Positions 4,339 through 17,068 of a stretch of DNA of 55,486 nucleotides are shown piece after piece. The position numbers were made by a program, and so were the translations under genes. The stretch comes from Nevskia sp. (lineage in GTDB: Bacteria; Pseudomonadota; Gammaproteobacteria; Nevskiales; Nevskiaceae): assembly GCF_023266035.1 (NCBI RefSeq), contig NZ_JAHFRY010000010.1:1-55486 (forward strand), in the 5' to 3' direction. The stretch's first letter is position 1. The number at the start of each line of letters is the position of its first letter. The notes under the pieces were generated by a model that worked only from the letters and a program-made list of their open reading frames with translations, was not told the DNA's origin and did not search any database.

Positions 4339-5427
4339 ATGCTCAAGAATATCGCGACCTTGACCTTGATCTGCGCCAGCAGCGCGGCGCTGGCCGAGGG
4401 TGAACCGATCGTCCGCGATCGCCTCGTCTACACATCGAACGATTACGTCAGCGTGATCGCTTCCGGTGTGTTTCCCGACAACGGCCGGGGAACCGACAAT
4501 ATCGGCGGCGGTATCGCCTTCATGTACGGCAACCAGTTCCATGAACTGCTTTCGGTGGAAGGCCGGGTGGCTTTCCAGCTTTTCGAGACCGGACGCGGAA
4601 AAGGCTCCGATTTCTACCAGGTCCAGGGCGGCGTCGATCTGACCGTGACCCCTTGGGATCGTCGTGACGAACGGCCGATCACTCCGTTCGCGCTGATCGG
4701 CATCGGCACGCACAGCGATGACGTGGCGATCGATACGCGTGACGATTCCAGCTTTGCCGTCAACGCCGGCGTCGGCTTCGTCACCGCGCCGGTCTTCCAC
4801 AACGTCCGCATTCGCGGCGAAGCCCGCTACACGTACTCCACGTACAGAAGCGGCTACGGCGATCCCAGCGTCGGCATCGGCGTGGAAATTCCGCTCGGCC
4901 GCGTCCGTCAGACGCTGACCACGGTATTCACGCCGCAAGCAACCAAGATCATCGAGACCGACAAGGAAGTGCCGCGTCCGTTCATCGACACCGACGGCGA
5001 TACCGTCATTGACGAACTCGACAAGTGCCCGGATACGCCGAAGGGCCTGAAGGTCGACGCCGAGGGTTGCATCCTCGCCGGCCAGCTGATCGAACTCCGT
5101 GGCGTCACCTTCAACCTCGACGAAACCAAGCTGCGTCCGAATGCACAGTCGGTGCTCGACGTCATCGCCAAGGGCATGGCCGGCCAGCGCTCGCTGCAGG
5201 TCGAAATCGCCGGTCACACCGATAGCCAGGGTTCCGCGGCCTACAACCTCAAGCTGTCACAGGGTCGTGCCGATGCTGTCCGCGCTTACCTGATCGACAA
5301 GGGCGTTTCGCCTGATCAGCTGAAGGCGGTTGGCTACGGCGAATCGCAGCTGAAGATCAAGCCGGAACGGAATCCAGACGACTACTTGCTGAACCGTCGT
5401 GTCGAGTTCCGGGTCAAGGCCCGCTGA
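4339..5427 (+). CDS. OmpA-family outer-membrane protein (copy 1)
   Basis: Structural outer-membrane protein that anchors the envelope to peptidoglycan. It has a signal peptide (residues 1-18, cut at ALA|EG), an N-terminal beta-barrel-like region to about 200, a thrombospondin type-3-like acidic calcium motif (DTDGDTVIDELDKCPDTPKG, about 217-236), and a C-terminal OmpA peptidoglycan-binding domain from about 255, including GHTDSQGS and the NLKLSQGRADAVRAYL helix. The start follows a good AGGAAGGG Shine-Dalgarno sequence. The next gene encodes a clear paralogue, so the pair arose by tandem duplication. The OprF/OmpA group is a secure assignment; exact orthology is not. Confidence 0.92.
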   Translation: MLKNIATLTLICASSAALAEGEPIVRDRLVYTSNDYVSVIASGVFPDNGRGTDNIGGGIAFMYGNQFHELLSVEGRVAFQLFETGRGKGSDFYQVQGGVDLTVTPWDRRDERPITPFALIGIGTHSDDVAIDTRDDSSFAVNAGVGFVTAPVFHNVRIRGEARYTYSTYRSGYGDPSVGIGVEIPLGRVRQTLTTVFTPQATKIIETDKEVPRPFIDTDGDTVIDELDKCPDTPKGLKVDAEGCILAGQLIELRGVTFNLDETKLRPNAQSVLDVIAKGMAGQRSLQVEIAGHTDSQGSAAYNLKLSQGRADAVRAYLIDKGVSPDQLKAVGYGESQLKIKPERNPDDYLLNRRVEFRVKAR

Positions 5428-5472: not shown

Positions 5473-5640
5473 GCTATACAAATGCTTGATTAGTTTGGTA
5501 AAGCCCGACGATTTTGTCGGCAAGCTTATTGCTGTCAAATAATTGACTTTGAATGATTCGGTGCTCAATCTGCGGCCCTGAGGCAGGGGTTGGCAGGAGG
5601 TGCGCCGTTCCATCCAGAACAGGCTCATACAGGGAAAAAC

Positions 5641-6708
5641 ATGCGTAATGCATTGATTGCGGCAGCGGTGCTCGCCAGTGGCGGCGCTCTTGCCCAGGGC
5701 GAGGAAAATGTTGGCGAGCACGATTACCTCAGCGTGCTGCCAACCTACGAAATTCCCGATAAAGCCCGCACTGGCGTTCGCAGCGGCAGCGGCGTATCGC
5801 TGCTCTACGGTCACTCGTTCACGCCGCACCTCGGCATCGAAGGTGGCGCCCACTGGGCGATCTACGCGACCGGCAACGGCAACGGCACCGATTTCTACCA
5901 GTACAGCGGCATGGTCGATCTGGTCTACACGATCACCGAGCGCCAAGGCTCGGCGCCGGTGCACCCGTTCCTGCTGCTCGGTGTCGGCGGCGCCTACAAC
6001 GACGTGACGCCGGACAAGCGCGACGCCGCGAGCGTGATCTACGGCGCCGGCGCAGGCCTGGTCAGCGCCGACCTCTATCACGGCATCCGCGTCCGCGCTG
6101 AAGGCCGCTACATCCGTGACGAGTTCCGCGCCGGCAACGAAGACATCCGCTTCTCGCTGGGTCTCGAATTCCCGCTCGGCCGCGGCGAGTCGAGCACCGT
6201 GACCATCCCGGCACCGGAACCCAAGATTGTCGAAGTGATTCGCGAAGTGCCGAAGCCGTTCATCGATACCGACGGCGACACCGTGGCCGACGAGCTCGAC
6301 AAGTGCCCGGATACGCCGCGCGGCATGAAGGTCGATGCCGAGGGTTGCATCATTCCGGACCAGATCATCGAACTGAAGGGCGTCACTTTCGAGTTCAACA
6401 AGGCGCGTCTGACGCCGAACGCTGAAGCCGTGCTCGACACCGTGGTCAAGGCCTTCGTCGGCCAGCCGTCGCTGCAGGTCGAGATCGGCGGCCATACCGA
6501 TTCGAAGGGCAGCGATGCCTACAACCTGAAACTGTCGCAGGCCCGTTCCAATTCGGTCCGCAGCTACCTGATTTCGCAGGGTGCGAGACCGGAACAGCTG
6601 ACCGCCGTCGGCTACGGCGAATCGCGTCTGCTGATCAACCCGGAAACCAGTGAAGACGATTGCGAGCTGAACCGCCGCACCGAATTCAAGGTTATCGGCG
6701 TCCGATAA
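5641..6708 (+). CDS. OmpA-family outer-membrane protein (copy 2)
   Basis: Paralogue of the preceding gene with the same architecture: signal peptide MRNALIAAAVLASGGALAQ, barrel-like region, TSP3-like motif DTDGDTVADELDKCPDTPRG (about residue 210), and OmpA C-terminal domain with GHTDSKGS and NLKLSQARSNSVRSYL. I place the start at 5641 because it begins the signal peptide; the in-frame upstream extension to 5590 would put a charged, non-secretory tail before it. 355 residues. The two copies are near-identical around the TSP3 and OmpA domains but diverge in the barrel, suggesting different surface loops on a common anchor. Confidence 0.92.
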   Translation: MRNALIAAAVLASGGALAQGEENVGEHDYLSVLPTYEIPDKARTGVRSGSGVSLLYGHSFTPHLGIEGGAHWAIYATGNGNGTDFYQYSGMVDLVYTITERQGSAPVHPFLLLGVGGAYNDVTPDKRDAASVIYGAGAGLVSADLYHGIRVRAEGRYIRDEFRAGNEDIRFSLGLEFPLGRGESSTVTIPAPEPKIVEVIREVPKPFIDTDGDTVADELDKCPDTPRGMKVDAEGCIIPDQIIELKGVTFEFNKARLTPNAEAVLDTVVKAFVGQPSLQVEIGGHTDSKGSDAYNLKLSQARSNSVRSYLISQGARPEQLTAVGYGESRLLINPETSEDDCELNRRTEFKVIGVR

Positions 6709-6747: not shown

Positions 6748-8364
6748 ATGAACAATCTTCAAAAGCGCATACGCAAGATCCCGATCGCCGCCGCGATGGC
6801 GTTGGTCGTCGGCCTTGCCGGCTGCGCGGACGACGCCAGCGGACTGGGCGGCACGACTTCGGGCACGACGGGCGGCACCACCGCCGGAACTACCGGTGGC
6901 ACCACTTCGGGGACCACGGCAGGCACCACCGGTGGCACGACGGCCGGCGATACTGGCGGCACTACCTCGGGCGTCACCGGTGGCACCACTTCGGGTACGA
7001 CTGCAGGTACCACCGGCGGCACGACTGCCGGCGATACCGGCGGTACTACCTCGGGCGTCACCGGTGGCACCACTTCGGGTACGACTGCAGGCACCACCGG
7101 CGGCACCACTTCGGGTACCACGGGCGGCCTCGGCGGCATCGTCTGCAACCCGACCTCGAGCACCTACCGGCCGATCCAGATTCCGAATGCCACGGCCATT
7201 GGCGTGAGGAATGGTATTTGCCTCGGCTGCAGCGTCGCCAACCCGGAAAACTCGATCGATACCGACATCACGACGATCTCGTTGCTGAGCACTCCGGTCG
7301 GCCTGCTCGGCGGCTCGGCGGAACTGCAGGTGCAGGACACCGCTACGCTCTATCCGGCTGGCCGTCGCGCTGGCTTCGTGATCTTCGATCCGGCAGGCGC
7401 CCTGCTGACCGCGACGCTGCTGCAGCAGGTCACAGTCGAAGCTGTCAACAACGGTGTCGTCCAGTCGAGTGCCGACAACACCACCTTGTCGCTCGACCTG
7501 CTCGGCTCGGCGATCATCGGCAGCACCGAGCCGACCTTCGCCAGCTTCATCCCGACTACGCCGTTCAACGAACTGCGCATCCGCTTCGGCTCCGCCGTCA
7601 ATGCGCTAGCTACCCTGGGTGTGTTCCAGGCCTGCGTTGCCGTGGACCCGAATGATCCCGGCACCACCACCGGTGGCTCGACGGGCGGAACCACGGCGGG
7701 TACGACGGGCGGCACTACTGCGGGGACCACGGGTGGCACCACTTCTGGCACCACGGGTGGAACGACCTCGGGCACGACTGGCGGCACGACGTCGGGCACC
7801 ACGGGCGGCACCACTACCGGTGGCACGACTGGCGGCGCGTCAGCATCCTTCTGCGATCCACTGATCCCGGCATCCAGCCCGCTGCTGGCTCCGAATGCGA
7901 CGGCTGTATCGGCGCCTGAGGGCGGCATCCTGTGCCTGGGTTGCGATGTCCAGAATCCGAACAGCGCCATCGACACCGACCTCCTCTCGCTGGCCACCAT
8001 CACCGCGCCGGTCAGCTTGCTGGGCGCTTCCTCGGTCCTGTCAGTGGTCGATACTTCGACAACCTATCCAGTTGGTCGCCGCGTCGGCTTCGTGATCGCC
8101 GATCCGGCGGGTGCTCTGCTGACAGCAACACTGCTGCAGAACATCACCGTGCGCGCCACGCTCAATGGCACAGTCGTATCCAGCGCCGACCTGGGCAGCC
8201 TGCTGAATCTCGACCTGCTGGGCACCAGCCTGATTGGCGGCGTCGCGCCGTCCTACGCCAGCTTCGTGCCGACCAGCCAATTCAATGGCGTCGACTTGGC
8301 TTTCCGCAATGTTGTCGGCGCGCTGGGCCAGCTCAAGGTCGCCCAAGTCTGCGTGTCGAACTGA
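6748..8364 (+). CDS. Surface lipoprotein with Thr/Gly repeat linkers and two copies of an unrecognised domain
   Basis: The N-terminus is a lipoprotein signal peptide with lipobox LAGC (Cys26), so the protein is probably membrane-anchored. Residues ~35-128 and ~303-364 are low-complexity GGTTSGTTGGTTAG-type repeats, encoded by degenerate DNA tandem repeats. They separate two homologous ~165-residue domains (about 133-300 and 367-538). Each domain contains a C-L-G-C motif, an IDTD motif, a YP-x-GRR-x-GFVI-x-DPAGALLTATLLQ segment and a C-terminal ACVAV/VCVS cysteine. I recognise no family. The ATG at 6748 follows a GGAG Shine-Dalgarno. It lies 39 nt after the second ompA-like gene and is probably co-transcribed with it. 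A role in the envelope or matrix is inference from the lipobox and linkers. Confidence 0.8.
   Translation: MNNLQKRIRKIPIAAAMALVVGLAGCADDASGLGGTTSGTTGGTTAGTTGGTTSGTTAGTTGGTTAGDTGGTTSGVTGGTTSGTTAGTTGGTTAGDTGGTTSGVTGGTTSGTTAGTTGGTTSGTTGGLGGIVCNPTSSTYRPIQIPNATAIGVRNGICLGCSVANPENSIDTDITTISLLSTPVGLLGGSAELQVQDTATLYPAGRRAGFVIFDPAGALLTATLLQQVTVEAVNNGVVQSSADNTTLSLDLLGSAIIGSTEPTFASFIPTTPFNELRIRFGSAVNALATLGVFQACVAVDPNDPGTTTGGSTGGTTAGTTGGTTAGTTGGTTSGTTGGTTSGTTGGTTSGTTGGTTTGGTTGGASASFCDPLIPASSPLLAPNATAVSAPEGGILCLGCDVQNPNSAIDTDLLSLATITAPVSLLGASSVLSVVDTSTTYPVGRRVGFVIADPAGALLTATLLQNITVRATLNGTVVSSADLGSLLNLDLLGTSLIGGVAPSYASFVPTSQFNGVDLAFRNVVGALGQLKVAQVCVSN
6850..7130 (+). repeat. Thr/Gly-coding tandem repeat, block 1
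   Basis: Degenerate repeat of units such as GGCACCACTTCGGGTACGAC encoding G-G-T-T-S-G-T-T and G-G-T-T-A-G-D-T. Longer units of roughly 100 nt (encoding TAGDTGGTTSGVTGGTTSGT) occur twice nearly unchanged, indicating recent slippage or unequal crossover. A second block lies at about 7665-7840. Confidence 0.85.
7665..7840 (+). repeat. Thr/Gly-coding tandem repeat, block 2
   Basis: Second degenerate repeat block in the same gene, with 12-24-nt units encoding GGTTAGTT/GGTTSGTT. It links the two copies of the CLGC domain. Its coding sense is maintained throughout and there are no spacers, so it is not a CRISPR array. Confidence 0.8.
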
Positions 8365-8375
8365 GCCCCGCACGA

Positions 8376-9125
8376 ATGAACAAGTGTGATCTGAGCCTGG
8401 TGTCCCTGACCGCAGCCGTGATGCTGGCTGCAGGTCTTGCCGGCTGCGCCGACGAGCACAGCGATATCAGTGGCGGCACGACCAGCGGCGGAAGCTCCGG
8501 CGGGACGACCGGTGGCACGACGACGGGCGGCGATCCAGGGGAATGCGTGATCAGCTGCTCGCCAACCCCGCCGCCGCCGCCAACCAGCTTGGAAGACTGC
8601 AATCCGAACAATCCGAACGCCACCTATGCACCGGTGGCCAACGTGACTTCGGTTGATGTCGGCACGGAAGGTCTTTGTCTCAACTGTCGGGTCGCTTCTC
8701 CGGTGTCGGCTTTCGATGCCAACGTCAGCACCTTCTCGGTGGAAACGGCTGGCCTCGGGGTTGCGGGAACGATCGATCTGAACGGCTACGGCACGACCAA
8801 TTATGTGAGCTCACCGACGGTTCTCCGTCGGGCAGGCTTCTTCGTCGCCTACCCACAGGACTCCGTCGCCGATGTGGCTCTGCTCTCCCGCGTTTCGGCT
8901 TTCAGCGTCAACACGACGGGCGCTGTGGTGCAGGGACCGGGCGTGCAGACCAGCGATACGGCACTGAGCCTGCAGTTGCTCGGTCTGCCGCTGCTGGCGG
9001 GTCAGTCGCTGGCCTTCGTCAGCGTCGTCACGACGCAGCCGTTCAACGGCGCAAGGCTCGACTTCTCGCCAACCATCGGCGTGCTGGCGGGCCTCAACGT
9101 GATCGAGGCCTGCATCTCGAAGTGA
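8376..9125 (+). CDS. Lipoprotein with a single copy of the CLGC/CLNC domain
   Basis: 249 residues. Signal peptide with lipobox LAGC (Cys24), a short GGTTSGGSSGGTTGGTT linker (about 31-48), a proline-rich stretch (SPTPPPPPTS), then one domain homologous to those of the preceding protein. It has CLNC in place of CLGC, FDANVSTFSVETAGLGV in place of the IDTD strand, RRAGFFVAYP, and a C-terminal EACISK. The ATG at 8376 begins a clean lipoprotein signal and lies 11 nt after the previous stop. The in-frame upstream extension simply overlaps the neighbouring gene and is rejected. Function unknown; it looks like a one-domain partner of the two-domain protein. Confidence 0.78.
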   Translation: MNKCDLSLVSLTAAVMLAAGLAGCADEHSDISGGTTSGGSSGGTTGGTTTGGDPGECVISCSPTPPPPPTSLEDCNPNNPNATYAPVANVTSVDVGTEGLCLNCRVASPVSAFDANVSTFSVETAGLGVAGTIDLNGYGTTNYVSSPTVLRRAGFFVAYPQDSVADVALLSRVSAFSVNTTGAVVQGPGVQTSDTALSLQLLGLPLLAGQSLAFVSVVTTQPFNGARLDFSPTIGVLAGLNVIEACISK

Positions 9126-9154
9126 TTGGTTGAGCTTTCAGCTTTTCGCTTTCA

Positions 9155-9188
9155 ACGGGCCTGCAGCGATGCAGGCCCGTTTTTGTTT
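9155..9188 (+). terminator. Rho-independent terminator
   Basis: Perfect 10-bp stem ACGGGCCTGC / GCAGGCCCGT with loop AGCGAT, followed by TTTTGTTT. It ends the ompA/lipoprotein transcription unit and sits just before the convergent rmuC gene. Confidence 0.9.
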
Positions 9189-10830: not shown

Positions 10831-11847
10831 TCAGCTACTCAGTCGCGGTGACAAGGCACGCAAGCGATATTCGCTGGGCGTGAGGCCGTACTGCACCTTG
10901 AACAGGCGGCTGAAGGTGGCGCAATCGTTGAATCCGTGATCGAAAGCGATGCCGGTGATCTTGCGATTCGGACGGCTGCTGTCATCAAGTGCCTGACGGC
11001 TGCGCTCCAGACGCAGATCGTGAATCATCTTCGAGGGCGTCAGCCGGCATTCCTTGAACAGCATGTACAGGGAGCGCCGCGACATGCACAGCGCCGACGC
11101 CAGATCATCCGGATCAAGCCCAGGATCGGAGATGTGATCGAGGATGTGCTGCTGGGCCCGGTTCAAACGATCATGCAGACGTATGTTGTTCAGACTGGGC
11201 AAGCCCAGCTCGCTCGCTGCCTGATGCAGCGAAGAGGTGATCATCGACTGCACGGCATGCAGCACGGTTTCACCGACACCGTCCTTGCCGCCGAGGCCGG
11301 CGCCGCTGAGTGCCATCAGTGCGCCGAACGTGGCACGCAAGGTGGCACTGTCGCCGAGTTGCTGACCGCACAGCTTCTGGCTGATCCGTTCCCAACCGGG
11401 GCAGGCCACATGCGGCAACATCAGCACCGCGAAATGAGCGCTATCGGATACGCGAATGCGATAGGGGCGCGTGCTGTCGCAGACCGTGGTCTGGCCCGGC
11501 GTGATGTGGCAGAGACGATTGTCCTGCTCAAGCTGGATATCGCCGGACAACTGCCACACCAGCTTGATGTAGCCGGACTCCGAACGATCGGCGAGATGAC
11601 GCGTGCGGATCACTTCGCTGGCATCCGCGTTGATCATCGTCAACGCGCCATCACCAAACTTGAAGGCGCTGACCTCGGCTTCGAAAAGTCCACCGGAATA
11701 GTTTCGGTGCTCCAGCCAGGGAAAGTTGTTGTTGACGAAATCCTTCCACTGCCCGAAACCGTGTACGGATTCCGAAGGGCCGAGACGAAACATCACACCA
11801 CCATCCGCCGGCCGGGAAAAGCTCGGCACTGCATTCATTCCAATCAT
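10831..11847 (-). CDS. AraC-family transcriptional regulator next to the sty genes
   Basis: 338 residues. The N-terminal half is an AraC_binding_2-like sensor domain (WQLSGDIQLEQ, PGQTTVCDSTRPY), the type found in FeaR, which controls phenylacetaldehyde dehydrogenase in E. coli. The C-terminal ~100 residues form the double helix-turn-helix (LASALCMSRRSLYMLFKE and ITGIAFDHGFNDCATFSRLFKVQYGLTPSEYR). The start at 11847 is preceded by GGAG with a 7-nt spacer. It lies directly downstream of styC on the same strand, so control of the styrene/phenylacetaldehyde genes is the natural hypothesis; see the phased repeats upstream of styD. The ligand is not determinable from sequence. Confidence 0.85.
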   Translation of the reverse strand: MIGMNAVPSFSRPADGGVMFRLGPSESVHGFGQWKDFVNNNFPWLEHRNYSGGLFEAEVSAFKFGDGALTMINADASEVIRTRHLADRSESGYIKLVWQLSGDIQLEQDNRLCHITPGQTTVCDSTRPYRIRVSDSAHFAVLMLPHVACPGWERISQKLCGQQLGDSATLRATFGALMALSGAGLGGKDGVGETVLHAVQSMITSSLHQAASELGLPSLNNIRLHDRLNRAQQHILDHISDPGLDPDDLASALCMSRRSLYMLFKECRLTPSKMIHDLRLERSRQALDDSSRPNRKITGIAFDHGFNDCATFSRLFKVQYGLTPSEYRLRALSPRLSS

Positions 11848-11923
11848 TTCATTTCTCCGTCAACACGTTCGCACGGACATCCAAGGGTTGGATCGTCCCG
11901 GCGTTTGGGGCTCTTTGGCCCTC

Positions 11924-11955
11924 ATCAGGCCCGGACTACGTGGTCCGGGCCTGAT
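11924..11955. terminator. Perfect 13-bp hairpin between styC and the araC-type gene
   Basis: ATCAGGCCCGGAC / GTCCGGGCCTGAT with a 6-nt loop. No T-run follows on either strand, so it may be an intrinsic terminator of weak type, an mRNA 3'-end stabiliser or a barrier between styC and the regulator gene rather than a classical terminator. Confidence 0.5.
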
Positions 11956-12008
11956 CTATCGGTCCTGCCCTCAAATCATCTCGAGCAAGCCCACCGCGAA
12001 CAATCGTG

Positions 12009-12485
12009 TCAGCGCGCGCGCAGCGCCTGGCGTCCGATGATGAACAGCGCGATCAGTGCCAGCACACCGAACAGATAAGCCGGGCCCAGTGCCAGTGCGC
12101 TGAAGATGTCGCCCGGGCCGAGGCGGCTGTCGCCGAAGCTCAGGCCGCGGTTCGCGGAGAAATTGCCGAAGAAGTAGAAACCGACATTGGCCCAGCCATC
12201 GAGAACGATAATCCAGCCGAGTCGCGCTGCGGTCTTTTCGGTGAACTCCAGCAGCGGCAACACGAAAGCCACCGTGATCACCATCATGCCGTTCATGGCC
12301 GGACCGGTATGCGCCTTGGCCCAGCCTTCCGGTGTGCCCGGAATATTGAAGTGCAGGATGTAGCCCGGGACGATCTCGAAACCACCGACCAGATTCATCC
12401 ACAGAAAAACGCCGAACAGCAGCGTCGAGAAAATCATCAAGATGCCGTGGCCAGCCATCTTGCGTTGCAGTTGCTTTGCCGCCAT
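12009..12485 (-). CDS. styC: Styrene oxide isomerase
   Basis: Membrane enzyme converting styrene oxide to phenylacetaldehyde (Meinwald rearrangement). 158 residues with four hydrophobic helices. The characteristic stretches KMAGHGILMIF, LWMNLVGGFEI, AHTGPAMNGMMVI and VLDGWANVGFYFFGNFS are all present. As I recall the Pseudomonas enzyme, His58, Asn64 and Tyr103 act at the ferric haem b site; these correspond here to His59, Asn65 and Tyr104. The start at 12485 is chosen because GGGGAGAG lies just upstream and the N-terminus then matches the family; the in-frame extension to 12536 has no support. Third gene of the styA-styB-styC unit, 138 nt after styB. Confidence 0.95.
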   Translation of the reverse strand: MAAKQLQRKMAGHGILMIFSTLLFGVFLWMNLVGGFEIVPGYILHFNIPGTPEGWAKAHTGPAMNGMMVITVAFVLPLLEFTEKTAARLGWIIVLDGWANVGFYFFGNFSANRGLSFGDSRLGPGDIFSALALGPAYLFGVLALIALFIIGRQALRAR

Positions 12486-12575
12486 TTCGCTCTCCCCGTT
12501 TTTATGTGTCGACCGGACCTCATCGGATCTGGCCATGCTTGATTGCCACCTTTCACTACAAGGCTCTACTTCTCA

Positions 12576-12604
12576 CGTGCAGATCCTCCAATCGGATCTG
12601 CACG
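12576..12604. promoter_or_regulatory. Intra-operon hairpin between styB and styC
   Basis: Perfect 11-bp stem CGTGCAGATCC / GGATCTGCACG around a 7-nt loop, in the 138-nt styB-styC gap. There is no T-run. Positioned to act as a partial terminator or an RNA-processing/stability element that would set styC expression apart from styAB. Confidence 0.45.
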
Positions 12605-12623
12605 GGTTTTCCGAGAACTCCAC

Positions 12624-13130
12624 TCAGGCGGCAATGGCCGTCCGGTGATAGCGGCTGCCGTAGAACATCAGCGGCGCCCCAGCTTCGCTACCACAGGCGG
12701 TGACCTGTGCCACGAACAAGGTGTGATCGTGAACCTGTACCTTCTCGATCGTTTCGCATTCGAACCAGGCCAGGCAATTACGCAGGGTCGGCAACTGTTC
12801 GCGAACCACGAAATCCGGCAGCAAAGATTCCTGCGGACGACCGCTGAAATGCGCGGAGAAGCTCTGCTGCCCTTCATTGAGGATGCAGGCTCCGTATCGG
12901 CCATTGCGCGAGATCAGGCGATGCGCCTTGCCTGGCTTCAACGAGACCAGCACCGTTGGCGGATCGAGACTCACCGAAGTGAAACTGTTGACGGTCATGC
13001 CGTGCACCTGACCGTCATCGTCCTCGCAGGTGAGGACGACGATGCCGGTGGCGAACATCGAAACCGACTTCCGGAAACTCTCCGGATCAACTCGACTACG
13101 TTTGCCCGACGCTGGGTCTGCATGACTCAT
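12624..13130 (-). CDS. styB: Styrene monooxygenase flavin reductase component
   Basis: NADH:FAD oxidoreductase that supplies reduced FAD to StyA. 168 residues, close to the ~170 of Pseudomonas StyB. Flavin-reductase-domain signatures are visible: FATGIVVLTC near the N-terminus, GMTVNSFTSVSLDPPTVLVS, and the C-terminal H-D-H-T-L-F-V-A-Q-V strand. The ATG at 13130 is preferred over the GTG at 13139 because GGAG lies 8 nt upstream of it. It follows styA by 51 nt on the same strand, as in known sty operons. Confidence 0.94.
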   Translation of the reverse strand: MSHADPASGKRSRVDPESFRKSVSMFATGIVVLTCEDDDGQVHGMTVNSFTSVSLDPPTVLVSLKPGKAHRLISRNGRYGACILNEGQQSFSAHFSGRPQESLLPDFVVREQLPTLRNCLAWFECETIEKVQVHDHTLFVAQVTACGSEAGAPLMFYGSRYHRTAIAA

Positions 13131-13181
13131 GGCTGACACTCCAGAAGGATCTTGATGTCCTTGTCACTGTGCCGGCGATGC

Positions 13182-14456
13182 TTAGGCCGCCGTAGCCATT
13201 TTCGGCTGCTTGGCCGCGGCTTTCATACGTGTCTCGACCCAGGCTTTCATGCGGTCGACACTGGCGAAGCAATCCCACTGCTTCTCGGGGAAGTTGAAGT
13301 TGTCGGTGAACTCGTCGGCCAACGCGCGGTTCTGGCTCAGCGCGCCGATGAACTGCTGCAGCTCGATCGGCATCGCCTTCAGATTGGTCATCATGAAGTT
13401 GGTCCAGCGCGCGGCACCGAGCACGCGATCGTTACGGCGCATGTTGACGTGCTCCACGAAGCGCTCGTCGAACACGTCCTGACGAACGAGTTCCTCGCCG
13501 AGGATCCAGGCTGCATGCGATGCCACGTTGGCGCCCTGACCAAGCAGCGGATCGACGGTGACCTGCACGTCGCCGAGTGCGATCGCGATCTTGCCGCCCT
13601 CAAGCGCCACGTGTGAGCGGCGAACGGTCGGCGTCACCCCACCCTGCAGAAGGTCCAGCGGGCCGTTGGCGAGGTCGAACTCCTGCTCGTCGATGCGCTC
13701 GGCGCAAGTCGGATAGTGCTTGCGCAGCTTGTCCAGCAGCAGCGCCATGAAGGCCTTCGGATTGTCGTCGTACTTGGTCTTGGCCAGCACTTCGAGATCG
13801 CCACCGGGAATGTTCTCGATGACCAGCGCGTTCTGCATGCCGTTGAACGTGGTGGTCGGGATTTCGATCATCTCGCCGGCGCCGGGGGAGAAGTACATCG
13901 TCACCGCACGGACCGGACGCTGCTTGATGCCCTTGAAGATGCCGACGCAGAGCGCACGCTGCGGCTTGTCGAACGGCGAGTGTTGCGTTTCGTAGGTGAA
14001 CATCTGGCCGAACGGACCCTTGCCGGTGCAGACCACCAGCAGGTAATGCCGGGCGCTGAGCGAGGAGACTTCTTCGCTCTTGATTTCGCGATATTCGATG
14101 TTGCCGCCGGCGTTCATGAAATCTTCCATCAGCCGAGGCTGATAGATGCGGTAATCGACCGCACGGCTGGCCGCATGCAGATCGCCGTAGAACTCCAGCG
14201 GCTGCGGCTGCAGACCGATGAAATAGTGGTGGCCGAAGTAGCCGAACTTCTGGTCCGGCCAGTGATTGACGCCCAGCGCGGTTTCGCGCTTCACCGTCAC
14301 GGCGTGATGGGCCACGGTGTTGAGCAGACGCATGCCGTGGTACTCGTCCGGCTTGCGATCGGTATAGAGGGTCACATCGACGCCGTGCTGGCGGAGATAC
14401 AGGCCCAGATGCAAGCCGGCCGTACCGGCACCGATGATTCCGACCTTTTTGCTCAT
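13182..14456 (-). CDS. styA: Styrene monooxygenase epoxidase component
   Basis: FADH2-dependent epoxidase making (S)-styrene oxide from styrene. 424 residues against about 415 in Pseudomonas. N-terminal Rossmann motif GIIGAGTAGLHLGLYLRQH (residues 6-24), then TLYTDRKPDEYHGMRLLNTV, YGDLHAASRAVDYRIYQPRL, RALCVGIFKGIK, and the FAD-binding GDVQVTVDPLLGQGANVASH followed by RWTNFMM. These stretches are diagnostic for StyA rather than for general p-hydroxybenzoate-hydroxylase-type enzymes. The ATG at 14456 follows GAGGAG; a TTG three codons upstream is not needed. It is first in the styABC unit and divergent from a LysR gene. Confidence 0.96.
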   Translation of the reverse strand: MSKKVGIIGAGTAGLHLGLYLRQHGVDVTLYTDRKPDEYHGMRLLNTVAHHAVTVKRETALGVNHWPDQKFGYFGHHYFIGLQPQPLEFYGDLHAASRAVDYRIYQPRLMEDFMNAGGNIEYREIKSEEVSSLSARHYLLVVCTGKGPFGQMFTYETQHSPFDKPQRALCVGIFKGIKQRPVRAVTMYFSPGAGEMIEIPTTTFNGMQNALVIENIPGGDLEVLAKTKYDDNPKAFMALLLDKLRKHYPTCAERIDEQEFDLANGPLDLLQGGVTPTVRRSHVALEGGKIAIALGDVQVTVDPLLGQGANVASHAAWILGEELVRQDVFDERFVEHVNMRRNDRVLGAARWTNFMMTNLKAMPIELQQFIGALSQNRALADEFTDNFNFPEKQWDCFASVDRMKAWVETRMKAAAKQPKMATAA

Positions 14457-14548
14457 CCCGATCAAGCTCCTCAGCTTTTATTGGATAGTCTTACTTTTGT
14501 GTATCGGATTCTGCGTCCGTGAATCCTGCTTGAAAACCTCGAAATCTG

Positions 14549-15568: not shown

Positions 15569-17068
15569 CTAGCCGGCGAGCAGCACCGTGATCGCCTTCT
15601 CCTCGGTGTAGGCCAGCACGCCGGACAAGCCGCACTCGCGGCCGATGCCGCTGGAGCCCACGCCGCCCCAGGGCAGACGGGCATCGATCGGCGCCCAGCA
15701 GTTGATGCCTACCGCGCCGGCACGGACCGCCTGTGCCACGCGATGCGCGCGGGCGACGTTACCGGTCCAGACCGTGGCGCCGAGGCCGTAGCGCGAGTCG
15801 TTGGCGATGCGGATCGCGTCTTCCTCGGTATCGAACGGAATGATCGTCGCCACCGGTCCGAAGATCTCGTCCTGGGCGATGCTCATGCTGTTGCTGGCGT
15901 CGGCAAAGATCGTCGGCTGCACGAACCAGCCCTTGGTATGCGTGGTCTCGCCACCAGCGAGCAAAGTGGCGCCTTCGGCGATGCCCTGGCGGATGTAGCG
16001 ATTGACGCGCTCGAACTGGCCCTTCTTGGAAACCGGCCCCATCTGCACGCCTTCGTCGAGCGGATTGCCCACCTTCACGCTCTTGGCCGCACCGGCGAGC
16101 ATCGCCGCAAAGCGCTCGGCGATGCCGCGCTGAACCAGCACGCGGGTGCCGGCGGCGCAGATCTGGCCCTGGTTGAAGAACACGCCCATCGCGCAGCCCT
16201 GGGCAGCGGCATCGAGCGACGCGTCATCGAACACGATCTGCGGACTCTTGCCGCCGAGTTCCAGCGACACCCGCTTGAACAAGGGGCCAGCGATGCGCTG
16301 GATTTCGGCACCGACTTCCGGGCTGCCGGTGAAGGTGATCTTGTCGACGCCCGGGTGCTCGCACAGCGCCTTGCCGACCACACGGCCGTAGCCGGTGACG
16401 ACGTTGACCACGCCATCGGGAATGCCTGCTTCCTGGCACAGCTTGGCCAGATGCAGCGCCGACAGCGGCGTTTCCTCGGACGGCTTCAGCACCACCGTGC
16501 AGCCGGCGGCGAGCAGCGGGCCGAGCTTCCAGGCGGTGATCATGAACGGCGTGTTCCACGGCACGATGGCACCGACCACGCCGACCGGCTCGCGCAGCGT
16601 GTACGACATCGTCGGCATGCCCATGTAGCCCGGCGTCGGAATGGTCCGGCCTTCGATCTTGTCGGCCCAGCCGGCTGAATGGCGCAGGGTTTCGATCGCA
16701 TTCGGCAGATCGAGCAGGCGCGGCTCGATCGGCGAGCGGCCGATGCAGCTGGCGTCCATGTCAGCAATCAGATCGGCATCGCGAGCCACCAGATCGGCAA
16801 GGCGGTGGATCAGCAGGCCGCGCTGCGAACCGCTCATGCGCCGCCATTCGCCGCCATCGAGCTGGGCGCGGGCCGCCTTCACGGCGGTATCGACATCGGC
16901 AGCCGTGCCGCTGGCCGAAGTGGCGATCACGTCCTCGGTGACCGGGCTGACCACGTCCAGGGTGCCGCCATCGGAGGCAGGCACGAAGCGCCCGCCGATG
17001 AACAGTTCGAGCGCAGCGATGTCTTGGGCGGCAGCAAGCTGCGCGGCAGGGGTGGACGGGCTATTCAT
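15569..17068 (-). CDS. styD: Phenylacetaldehyde dehydrogenase (StyD/FeaB-like aldehyde dehydrogenase)
   Basis: NAD(P)-dependent oxidation of phenylacetaldehyde to phenylacetate, completing the upper styrene pathway. 499 residues, as in StyD/FeaB. The ALDH active site is intact: the general-base Glu in SLELGGKSPQIVFDD (about 268), the nucleophilic Cys in FFNQGQICAAGTRVL (about 302) and the C-terminal PWGGVGSSGIGRECG motif. The start at 17068 has GGAG 8 nt upstream. Substrate assignment rests on the styABC neighbourhood; by sequence alone it could be another aromatic or betaine-type ALDH. Confidence 0.88.
   Translation of the reverse strand: MNSPSTPAAQLAAAQDIAALELFIGGRFVPASDGGTLDVVSPVTEDVIATSASGTAADVDTAVKAARAQLDGGEWRRMSGSQRGLLIHRLADLVARDADLIADMDASCIGRSPIEPRLLDLPNAIETLRHSAGWADKIEGRTIPTPGYMGMPTMSYTLREPVGVVGAIVPWNTPFMITAWKLGPLLAAGCTVVLKPSEETPLSALHLAKLCQEAGIPDGVVNVVTGYGRVVGKALCEHPGVDKITFTGSPEVGAEIQRIAGPLFKRVSLELGGKSPQIVFDDASLDAAAQGCAMGVFFNQGQICAAGTRVLVQRGIAERFAAMLAGAAKSVKVGNPLDEGVQMGPVSKKGQFERVNRYIRQGIAEGATLLAGGETTHTKGWFVQPTIFADASNSMSIAQDEIFGPVATIIPFDTEEDAIRIANDSRYGLGATVWTGNVARAHRVAQAVRAGAVGINCWAPIDARLPWGGVGSSGIGRECGLSGVLAYTEEKAITVLLAG

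Follow-up and report, generated by a model that had tools for sequence, protein, structure and literature searches.

A recurrent domain with a predicted discoidin-like jelly roll in putative lipoproteins encoded beside OmpA-family genes in Nevskia

INTRODUCTION

Two adjacent genes of Nevskia sp. (RefSeq assembly GCF_023266035.1) encode predicted lipoproteins that share a domain of approximately 170 amino acids (aa). What is this domain, and what might it do at the cell envelope? The window analyzed here is a stretch of 55,486 nucleotides (contig NZ_JAHFRY010000010.1, positions 1 to 55,486), for which an original prediction had described three copies of a domain of no recognizable family, tethered by Thr/Gly-rich linkers to lipid anchors and suited to cell-surface display.

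RESULTS

Organization of the locus. The features considered below are as follows (all on the + strand).

4339 to 5427, +: ompA1, OmpA-family gene 1 (Pfam OmpA, 6.6e-22; OMP_b-brl, 7.3e-07)
5641 to 6708, +: ompA2, OmpA-family gene 2 (Pfam OmpA, 3.2e-22; OMP_b-brl, 1.4e-07)
6748 to 8364, +: lipA, 538-aa predicted lipoprotein with two domains (open reading frame [ORF]; lipobox seen in sequence)
6841 to 7143, +: Thr/Gly linker 1, 101 aa, 42 Thr and 38 Gly (composition, tandem repeats)
7144 to 7641, +: domain copy 1 (profile/pairwise comparison)
7660 to 7836, +: Thr/Gly linker 2, 59 aa, 29 Thr and 24 Gly (composition, tandem repeats)
7846 to 8361, +: domain copy 2, farthest from the predicted lipid anchor, strongly diverged, modeled with AlphaFold2
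8376 to 9125, +: lipB, 249-aa predicted lipoprotein with one domain (ORF; lipobox seen in sequence)
8598 to 9122, +: domain copy 3, divergent B-type (97 to 99% identity in two near relatives)
9154 to 9181, +: terminator-like hairpin, 12 pairs, between lipB and the convergent rmuC

The Pfam matches bear out the claim that two OmpA paralogues lie directly upstream of the lipoprotein genes. The ompA1 product consists of a barrel-type domain followed by an OmpA domain of the peptidoglycan-binding type (Pfam), and ompA2 is its paralogue; the scan of ompA2 was begun at 5635, and its ATG start at 5641 was taken from a reading of the sequence. The short gaps between ompA2 and lipA (39 bp) and between lipA and lipB (11 bp) suggest that at minimum these three genes form one transcript. 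The convergent rmuC lies beyond the hairpin, which is a consensus match only (i.e., the region has 5 such matches, versus 3.8 expected in shuffled sequences).

The two lipoprotein ORFs were also found as claimed. As judged by eye from the translations, each has the signal peptide with a lipobox that characterizes bacterial lipoproteins: a signal-peptide-like stretch is followed by LAG/C, with Cys26 of LipA and Cys24 of LipB as the predicted lipid-attachment sites. LipA is then composed of the 101-aa linker, copy 1, the 59-aa linker, and copy 2, while in LipB a short linker precedes copy 3. Regarding the Thr/Gly character of the linkers, the prediction was correct for LipA and not for LipB, the linker of which is of mixed composition (Thr/Gly followed by two Cys and a run of Pro). 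In lipA, the linkers are encoded by tandemly repeated DNA (with periods of 12, 24, and 84 bp, among others), and Thr/Gly runs vary in length among relatives.

Pairwise BLASTP comparisons of copy 1 with copy 2 (51% identity; 169 columns; E, 3e-50) and with copy 3 (33%; 177 columns; E, 1e-17) revealed similarity far above chance; the three copies, two in the first protein and one in the second as predicted, are homologous. The motifs quoted for the domain (CLGC, IDTD, and ATLLQ) are present in copies 1 and 2 but not in copy 3, the most divergent of the three, in which the counterparts are CLNC, FDAN, RRAGFFV, and ADVALLS. The genome also encodes a fourth, remoter copy (E, 1.3e-21) at another site; its 205-aa ORF opens with a stretch resembling a signal peptide, with no lipobox evident.

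Distribution and gene neighborhoods. We scanned one genome per species (84,980 species) with two short peptide patterns derived from the three copies, which confirmed 11 loci: nine from gammaproteobacterial metagenome-assembled genomes (six Nevskia, one Lysobacteraceae, and two Gammaproteobacteria) and two from Chitinophaga. A profile of the three copies (E, 0.001) had matches in 48 of 61 genomes sampled around that of the window, namely, the window's genome itself and, counting only others at each level, 16 of 17 from the genus, 17 of 19 from the family, and 14 of 24 from the rest of the order. With a 36-row profile (E, 1e-4), matches were obtained for 4 of 276 genomes in one sample of the class (the window's genome and two from its order among them) and for 5 of 299 in another (including the window's own). 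The same profile matched 30 of 296 Bacteroidota genomes, one of them the Chitinophaga genome used as the center of the sample, and 29 of the 30 had two or more copies; in both class samples and the Bacteroidota sample, at most 12 or 13 candidates were scored per genome. The domain is thus found in most genomes sampled near Nevskia and in about 1 in 10 sampled Bacteroidota, and it is rare elsewhere in Gammaproteobacteria.

Synteny was compared across 15 loci. Seven (L014, L016, L017, L018, L019, L020, and L097) have a pair of ompA genes ahead of the domain gene, and two more have at least one (L021 and L101), where one ompA gene or its end is present and the contig ends; two others (L013 and L015) start inside the domain gene. 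The four paralogous loci (L012, which lies at a contig end, L098, L099, and L100) showed no same-strand ompA gene upstream; at L098, an OmpA match is situated approximately 1.2 kb away on the opposite strand. Loci contain between one and three lipoprotein genes, and rmuC follows in eight of them.

Conserved positions. We collected 135 copies (i.e., profile matches covering 110 or more model positions, with each distinct sequence counted once, excluding 8 sequences of a distant subfamily), which were assigned to Gammaproteobacteria (66 rows) or Bacteroidota (69 rows) according to the search that yielded each locus. Both columns of the C-x-x-C motif are Cys in 62/66 gammaproteobacterial and 51/69 Bacteroidota rows, and the first residue between the cysteines is mostly hydrophobic. 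The conserved motif Asp is retained in 126/135 copies (64/66 and 62/69, respectively), and D-x-[NDS] occurs in 106/135; the strict form, hhDG[NDS], occurs in 12/135, and a similar pattern is matched by 5 of 26 F5/8 type C (F5/8C) control domains. These controls are the loci used from 40 PF00754 matches and 30 loci in two Chitinophaga genomes. The final Cys is conserved in 58/66 gammaproteobacterial rows; in Bacteroidota, Cys is not the usual residue there. Trp is absent from 120/135 copies, versus 0/26 controls, and His and Lys are rare.

Relation to known families. Searches of Pfam and NCBIfam with 36 members (copies 1 to 3 and 33 relatives) returned no meaningful match, and nothing below an E value of 0.77 was found among PDB sequences with either copy 2 or the 36-row profile as the query. 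Matches to 7TM_GPCR_Srj, PenR, P68HR, DUF1072, SslE, and others (E, approximately 0.02 to 0.5) were noise, and a tblastn search of plasmids with copy 2 found nothing. At the sequence level, the claim that the domain belongs to no known family therefore stands, and the confident match to a characterized family that would contradict it was not found in the libraries searched. Literature searches on Nevskia, bacterial F-type lectins, SprB/SprF, TSP3/MtsC, and discoidin lipoproteins turned up nothing that we recognized as this domain, which is not proof of novelty.

AlphaFold2 models were obtained for copy 2 (pLDDT, 81.9; pTM, 0.80; 36-row alignment) and for a Chitinophaga copy (pLDDT, 87.1; pTM, 0.84; 25-row alignment); the two are not wholly independent, because the 25-row alignment included window rows. 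Both predicted structures resemble the jelly roll of discoidin, F5/8C, and F-type-lectin domains. With VIA-align, the best match of both models was an F-type lectin (the family of the lectinolysin lectin domain and fucolectins): 3lek for copy 2 (Z, 12.2; 128 residues; 2.9 Å) and 3lei for the Chitinophaga copy (Z, 11.4; 126 residues; 3.0 Å), the latter tied within 1 Z unit with other sugar-binding and glycosidase domains. The best Foldseek matches were CBM32 2v72 (E, 2.5e-6; TM, 0.52 on the query) and CBM86 6sgf (E, 4.2e-5; TM, 0.47), respectively, with TM-scores of only approximately 0.5, and identity in the structural alignments with F-type lectins was approximately 10 to 20%. As far as these models go, the domain appears not to be an orphan fold but a discoidin/F-type-lectin/CBM32-like one.

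The nearest sequence family to consider is F5/8C/CBM32 (PF00754), which the domain resembles in its predicted jelly roll and in an "aiDgdxxT"-type motif. Membership by sequence was not upheld. In a Pfam scan of the 36 members at E values up to 5 (in which HMMER filters discard most matches above approximately 0.1), matches to 9 families were obtained, none of them PF00754; at an E value of 1e-5, PF00754 had no match anywhere in the window's genome. Comparison of the domain with the PF00754-type controls by hhalign gave a probability of only 4.8% (P, 0.008) over just 12 columns, with the Asp motif as the sole part aligned; reversed, shuffled, and Ig_7 controls were all weaker (P, 0.06 to 0.84). 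The two groups also differ in composition: Trp follows the Asp motif in 23/26 controls versus 2/135 domain copies (by slightly different patterns), and C-x-x-C occurs in 0/26 controls. Discoidin domains have a terminal disulfide, of which the terminal Cys of the gammaproteobacterial copies is reminiscent.

Regarding F-type lectins, the conserved Asp and D-x-[NDS] resemble the cation motif h2DGx, as given in PMC5712786. The fucose motif given there, HX24RXDX4(R/K), is missing from all 135 copies, even with a loose pattern (H x18-34 R x D x3-6 R/K). With no fucose motif, almost no Trp, and few His and Lys residues, no standard sugar pocket is apparent. Given the discoidin-like models on the one hand and the lack of a profile match or fucose motif and the scarcity of Trp on the other, we regard the domain as a separate family without a library model, on a predicted discoidin-type fold; a common fold does not equal a common function.

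Architectures of homologous proteins. The gammaproteobacterial protein set (n = 55) was obtained by merging proteins with identical last 60 residues and still includes one protein twice, as the truncated versions L055 and L059. The domain ends within 30 aa of the C terminus in 44 of 51 proteins with a complete C terminus; the seven exceptions are five TSP3-type proteins with approximately 400 more residues and two with 42- and 88-aa tails. A lipobox was detected in 34 of 43 proteins with a complete N terminus. The pattern used was crude; it failed to recognize lipB of the window, the open frame of which extends far upstream. In addition to Thr/Gly linkers, the stalks include Big_2 Ig-like domains (L043) and thrombospondin-3 repeats (L036 and L039): two or more TSP3-like motifs occur in 10/55 proteins, and TSP_3 or Big_2 was found in 3 of 5 proteins scanned with Pfam. 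One of these, L036, exceeds the cutoff of the thrombospondin-3 cell cohesion family MtsC (NCBIfam NF047638; 378 versus 350 bits) and has the domain at its C terminus. The match lies in the TSP3 repeats, however, outside the domain, and the window lipoproteins have no TSP3 stalk.

The Bacteroidota architecture is known from one protein, the giant Chitinophaga L022, in which several domain copies are interspersed with Ig_7 domains and the C terminus is a CHU_C/type IX type-B sorting domain; the adjoining gene encodes a PorP/SprF family protein (3e-54). These repeats, sorting domain, and neighbor resemble those of SprB-like type IX type-B adhesins; SprF binds SprB, a type-B protein of Flavobacterium johnsoniae (PMC9143113). 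In contrast, the Nevskia proteins are short predicted lipoproteins with OmpA-family neighbors, and LipA and LipB gave no match to the type IX type-B sorting domain in Pfam or NCBIfam.

Phylogeny and divergence. A tree was built from 134 of the 135 copies after length filtering. Copies from the OmpA-linked Nevskia loci formed one group (support, 95/79), with a long lipB-type branch (1.71). Each of the three copy types (copy 1, copy 2, and that of lipB) clustered with its counterparts in relatives, so the duplications predate the split of the closest genomes. Bacteroidota and gammaproteobacterial copies were largely but not wholly separate (4 changes versus a shuffled mean of 45), and the placement of both copies of one gammaproteobacterial genome (G326) among six Bacteroidota copies (98/90) suggests transfer.

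Divergence from the close relative G002 was uneven along the locus. The identities of OmpA1 and OmpA2 were 98 to 99% (dS, 0.233 and 0.221) and that of the lipB domain was 99% (dS, 0.206), compared with 95% for copy 1 (dS, 0.356), 92% for RmuC (dS, 0.438), and only 66% for copy 2 at the aa level (dS, 0.815; dN, 0.262; dN/dS, approximately 0.3). Comparison with G010 gave a similar value for copy 2 (68%; dS, 0.763), versus 97% for the lipB domain and 98% for RmuC; in the comparison with G015, some segments had no true counterpart, and their best match was a paralogue. In the tree, copy 2 of the window paired with the L015 copy (99/92) and not with the G002 or L013 copies. All comparisons gave a dN/dS ratio below 1, in keeping with coding sequence under constraint. 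Pure positive selection on copy 2 was dropped as an explanation, since dS was raised along with dN. With its far lower identity and higher dS than its neighbors, copy 2 looks like a divergent allele.

DISCUSSION

The account that we favor, and consider somewhat likelier to be right than wrong, is that LipA and LipB are outer-membrane lipoproteins that present discoidin-fold heads for adhesion or ligand binding on flexible stalks and are made together with OmpA-type anchors. The proteins would be lipid anchored in the outer membrane, and the stalks would hold the F5/8C/F-type-lectin-like heads off the membrane; lipA and lipB are probably cotranscribed with the genes for the OmpA-type barrel/peptidoglycan anchors. 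At the cell surface, the heads would most likely hold cells to their own matrix, to neighbors, or to particles, with glycans as the likeliest class of ligand. Nevskia inhabits hydrophobic pellicles at the air-water interface and dominates bubble biofilms (PMC7798470); with this way of life, binding to a matrix or an interface is a natural hypothesis. Export to the outer face, the ligand class, and the adhesive role are all inferred, the last of these from the company that the domain keeps, namely, the stalk types and the type IX-sorted giant protein. Regarding the predicted surface display, the architecture of the homologues is in agreement (a predominantly C-terminal domain, frequent lipoboxes, and the sorting domain of L022), and by analogy the Nevskia proteins may be exposed as well.

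The conserved gene order with ompA in Nevskia loci would also suit a location inside the envelope, with LipA and LipB acting in the periplasm, alongside the peptidoglycan-anchoring OmpA proteins, as envelope spacers or cross-links. A periplasmic orientation is common among gammaproteobacterial lipoproteins. We regard this as unlikely, given that L022 carries a type IX sorting domain beside a PorP/SprF gene and that linker length varies among relatives, which suits reach better than fixed spacing. Even if the heads are outside, their ligand might not be a sugar. The heads might bind lipid or a hydrophobic interface and help to build the water-repellent pellicle with which Nevskia lives at the air-water surface; such pellicles are described as hydrophobic (PMC7798470). 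The absence of any fucose motif match, the near absence of Trp, the conserved C-x-x-C with its mostly hydrophobic first intervening residue, and the high Ala+Val+Leu+Ile content (37.6% versus 29.0% in the F5/8C controls) are consistent with this, as is the factor V C2 domain, which has the same fold and, according to PMC5712786, has affinity for phospholipid without the basic triad. We nevertheless hold it to be rather improbable, because the domain is not confined to Nevskia but extends to other genera of its order and to Bacteroidota and because the hydrophobic residues may belong merely to the core.

The divergence of copy 2 raises a further reading, in which allele exchange maintains diversity in the outermost domain, a putative phage target or variable surface antigen. 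Its raised dS relative to OmpA1, OmpA2, and the lipB domain and its pairing in the tree with L015 point in this direction, but the pattern comes from a handful of genomes, the dN/dS of copy 2 does not show positive selection, and rmuC also has a raised dS in the same pair; we give this reading little credence. A broader conjecture, for which we would claim no more than a slim chance, is that the domain defines a widespread and undescribed Trp-poor discoidin-type family in which C-x-x-C forms a new binding tip on stalked proteins of two phyla, that the OmpA-linked set of Nevskia builds or grips the air-water pellicle, and that its outermost head is exchanged between strains for specificity.

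On the favored reading of LipA and LipB as stalked surface lipoproteins, Nevskia gains candidate adhesion heads, and its air-water/air-air cohesion lacks an explanation in the available text of the literature searched. A domain without a library model now has a predicted fold, a set of conserved motifs, and a role that can be tested, and the giant type IX-sorted proteins gain a defined repeat unit for study.

Relatives of the LipA/LipB domain

A second, distant sub-family of the domain found in LipA and LipB, lacking the C-x-x-C motif, was represented by eight loci (L089-L096). These came from eight genomes of the window's order, which were chosen from the genomes searched with the three-copy profile. 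Aligned with the main family, the sub-family scored an hhalign Prob of 99.8 (E, 9e-28). The open frames encode 268 to 318 aa, every one of them ends with the domain, and seven of the eight proteins carry a lipobox. Four of these proteins were scanned against Pfam; two had no match, and the other two had weak EF-hand or TSP3 matches that were located outside the domain.

Five proteins from another family of the same order (L037, L039, L041, L045, and L047) continue after the domain with a tail of approximately 400 residues with an abundance of repeated Leu/Asn/Asp/Gly segments. The L039 tail, the only one of the five that was scanned, matched no Pfam family above the cutoff.

Possible transfer and allele replacement

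Both domain copies of a protein from the gammaproteobacterial genome G326 (represented by two cut versions, L055 and L059) were placed among Bacteroidota copies in the tree, and horizontal transfer of this protein is possible. Within LipA, copy 2 (7846-8361), the domain furthest from the lipid anchor, had a dS of 0.815 between the window and its relative G002, far above the values of approximately 0.2 obtained for OmpA1, OmpA2, and the lipB domain, suggesting allele replacement at the LipA tip.

Possible styrene or indole oxidation cluster

Minus-strand genes at 10831-14465
10831-11847, minus: AraC-type regulator, in the same group
12624-13139, minus: flavin reductase gene (Flavin_Reduct, 6.4e-36), adjoining the next
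13182-14465, minus: styrene-monooxygenase-A-like gene (Pfam Smoa_sbd, 5.5e-33)

The ORF at 15569-17068 is, by its appearance, presumably an aldehyde dehydrogenase. This set of genes is possibly a cluster for styrene or indole oxidation.
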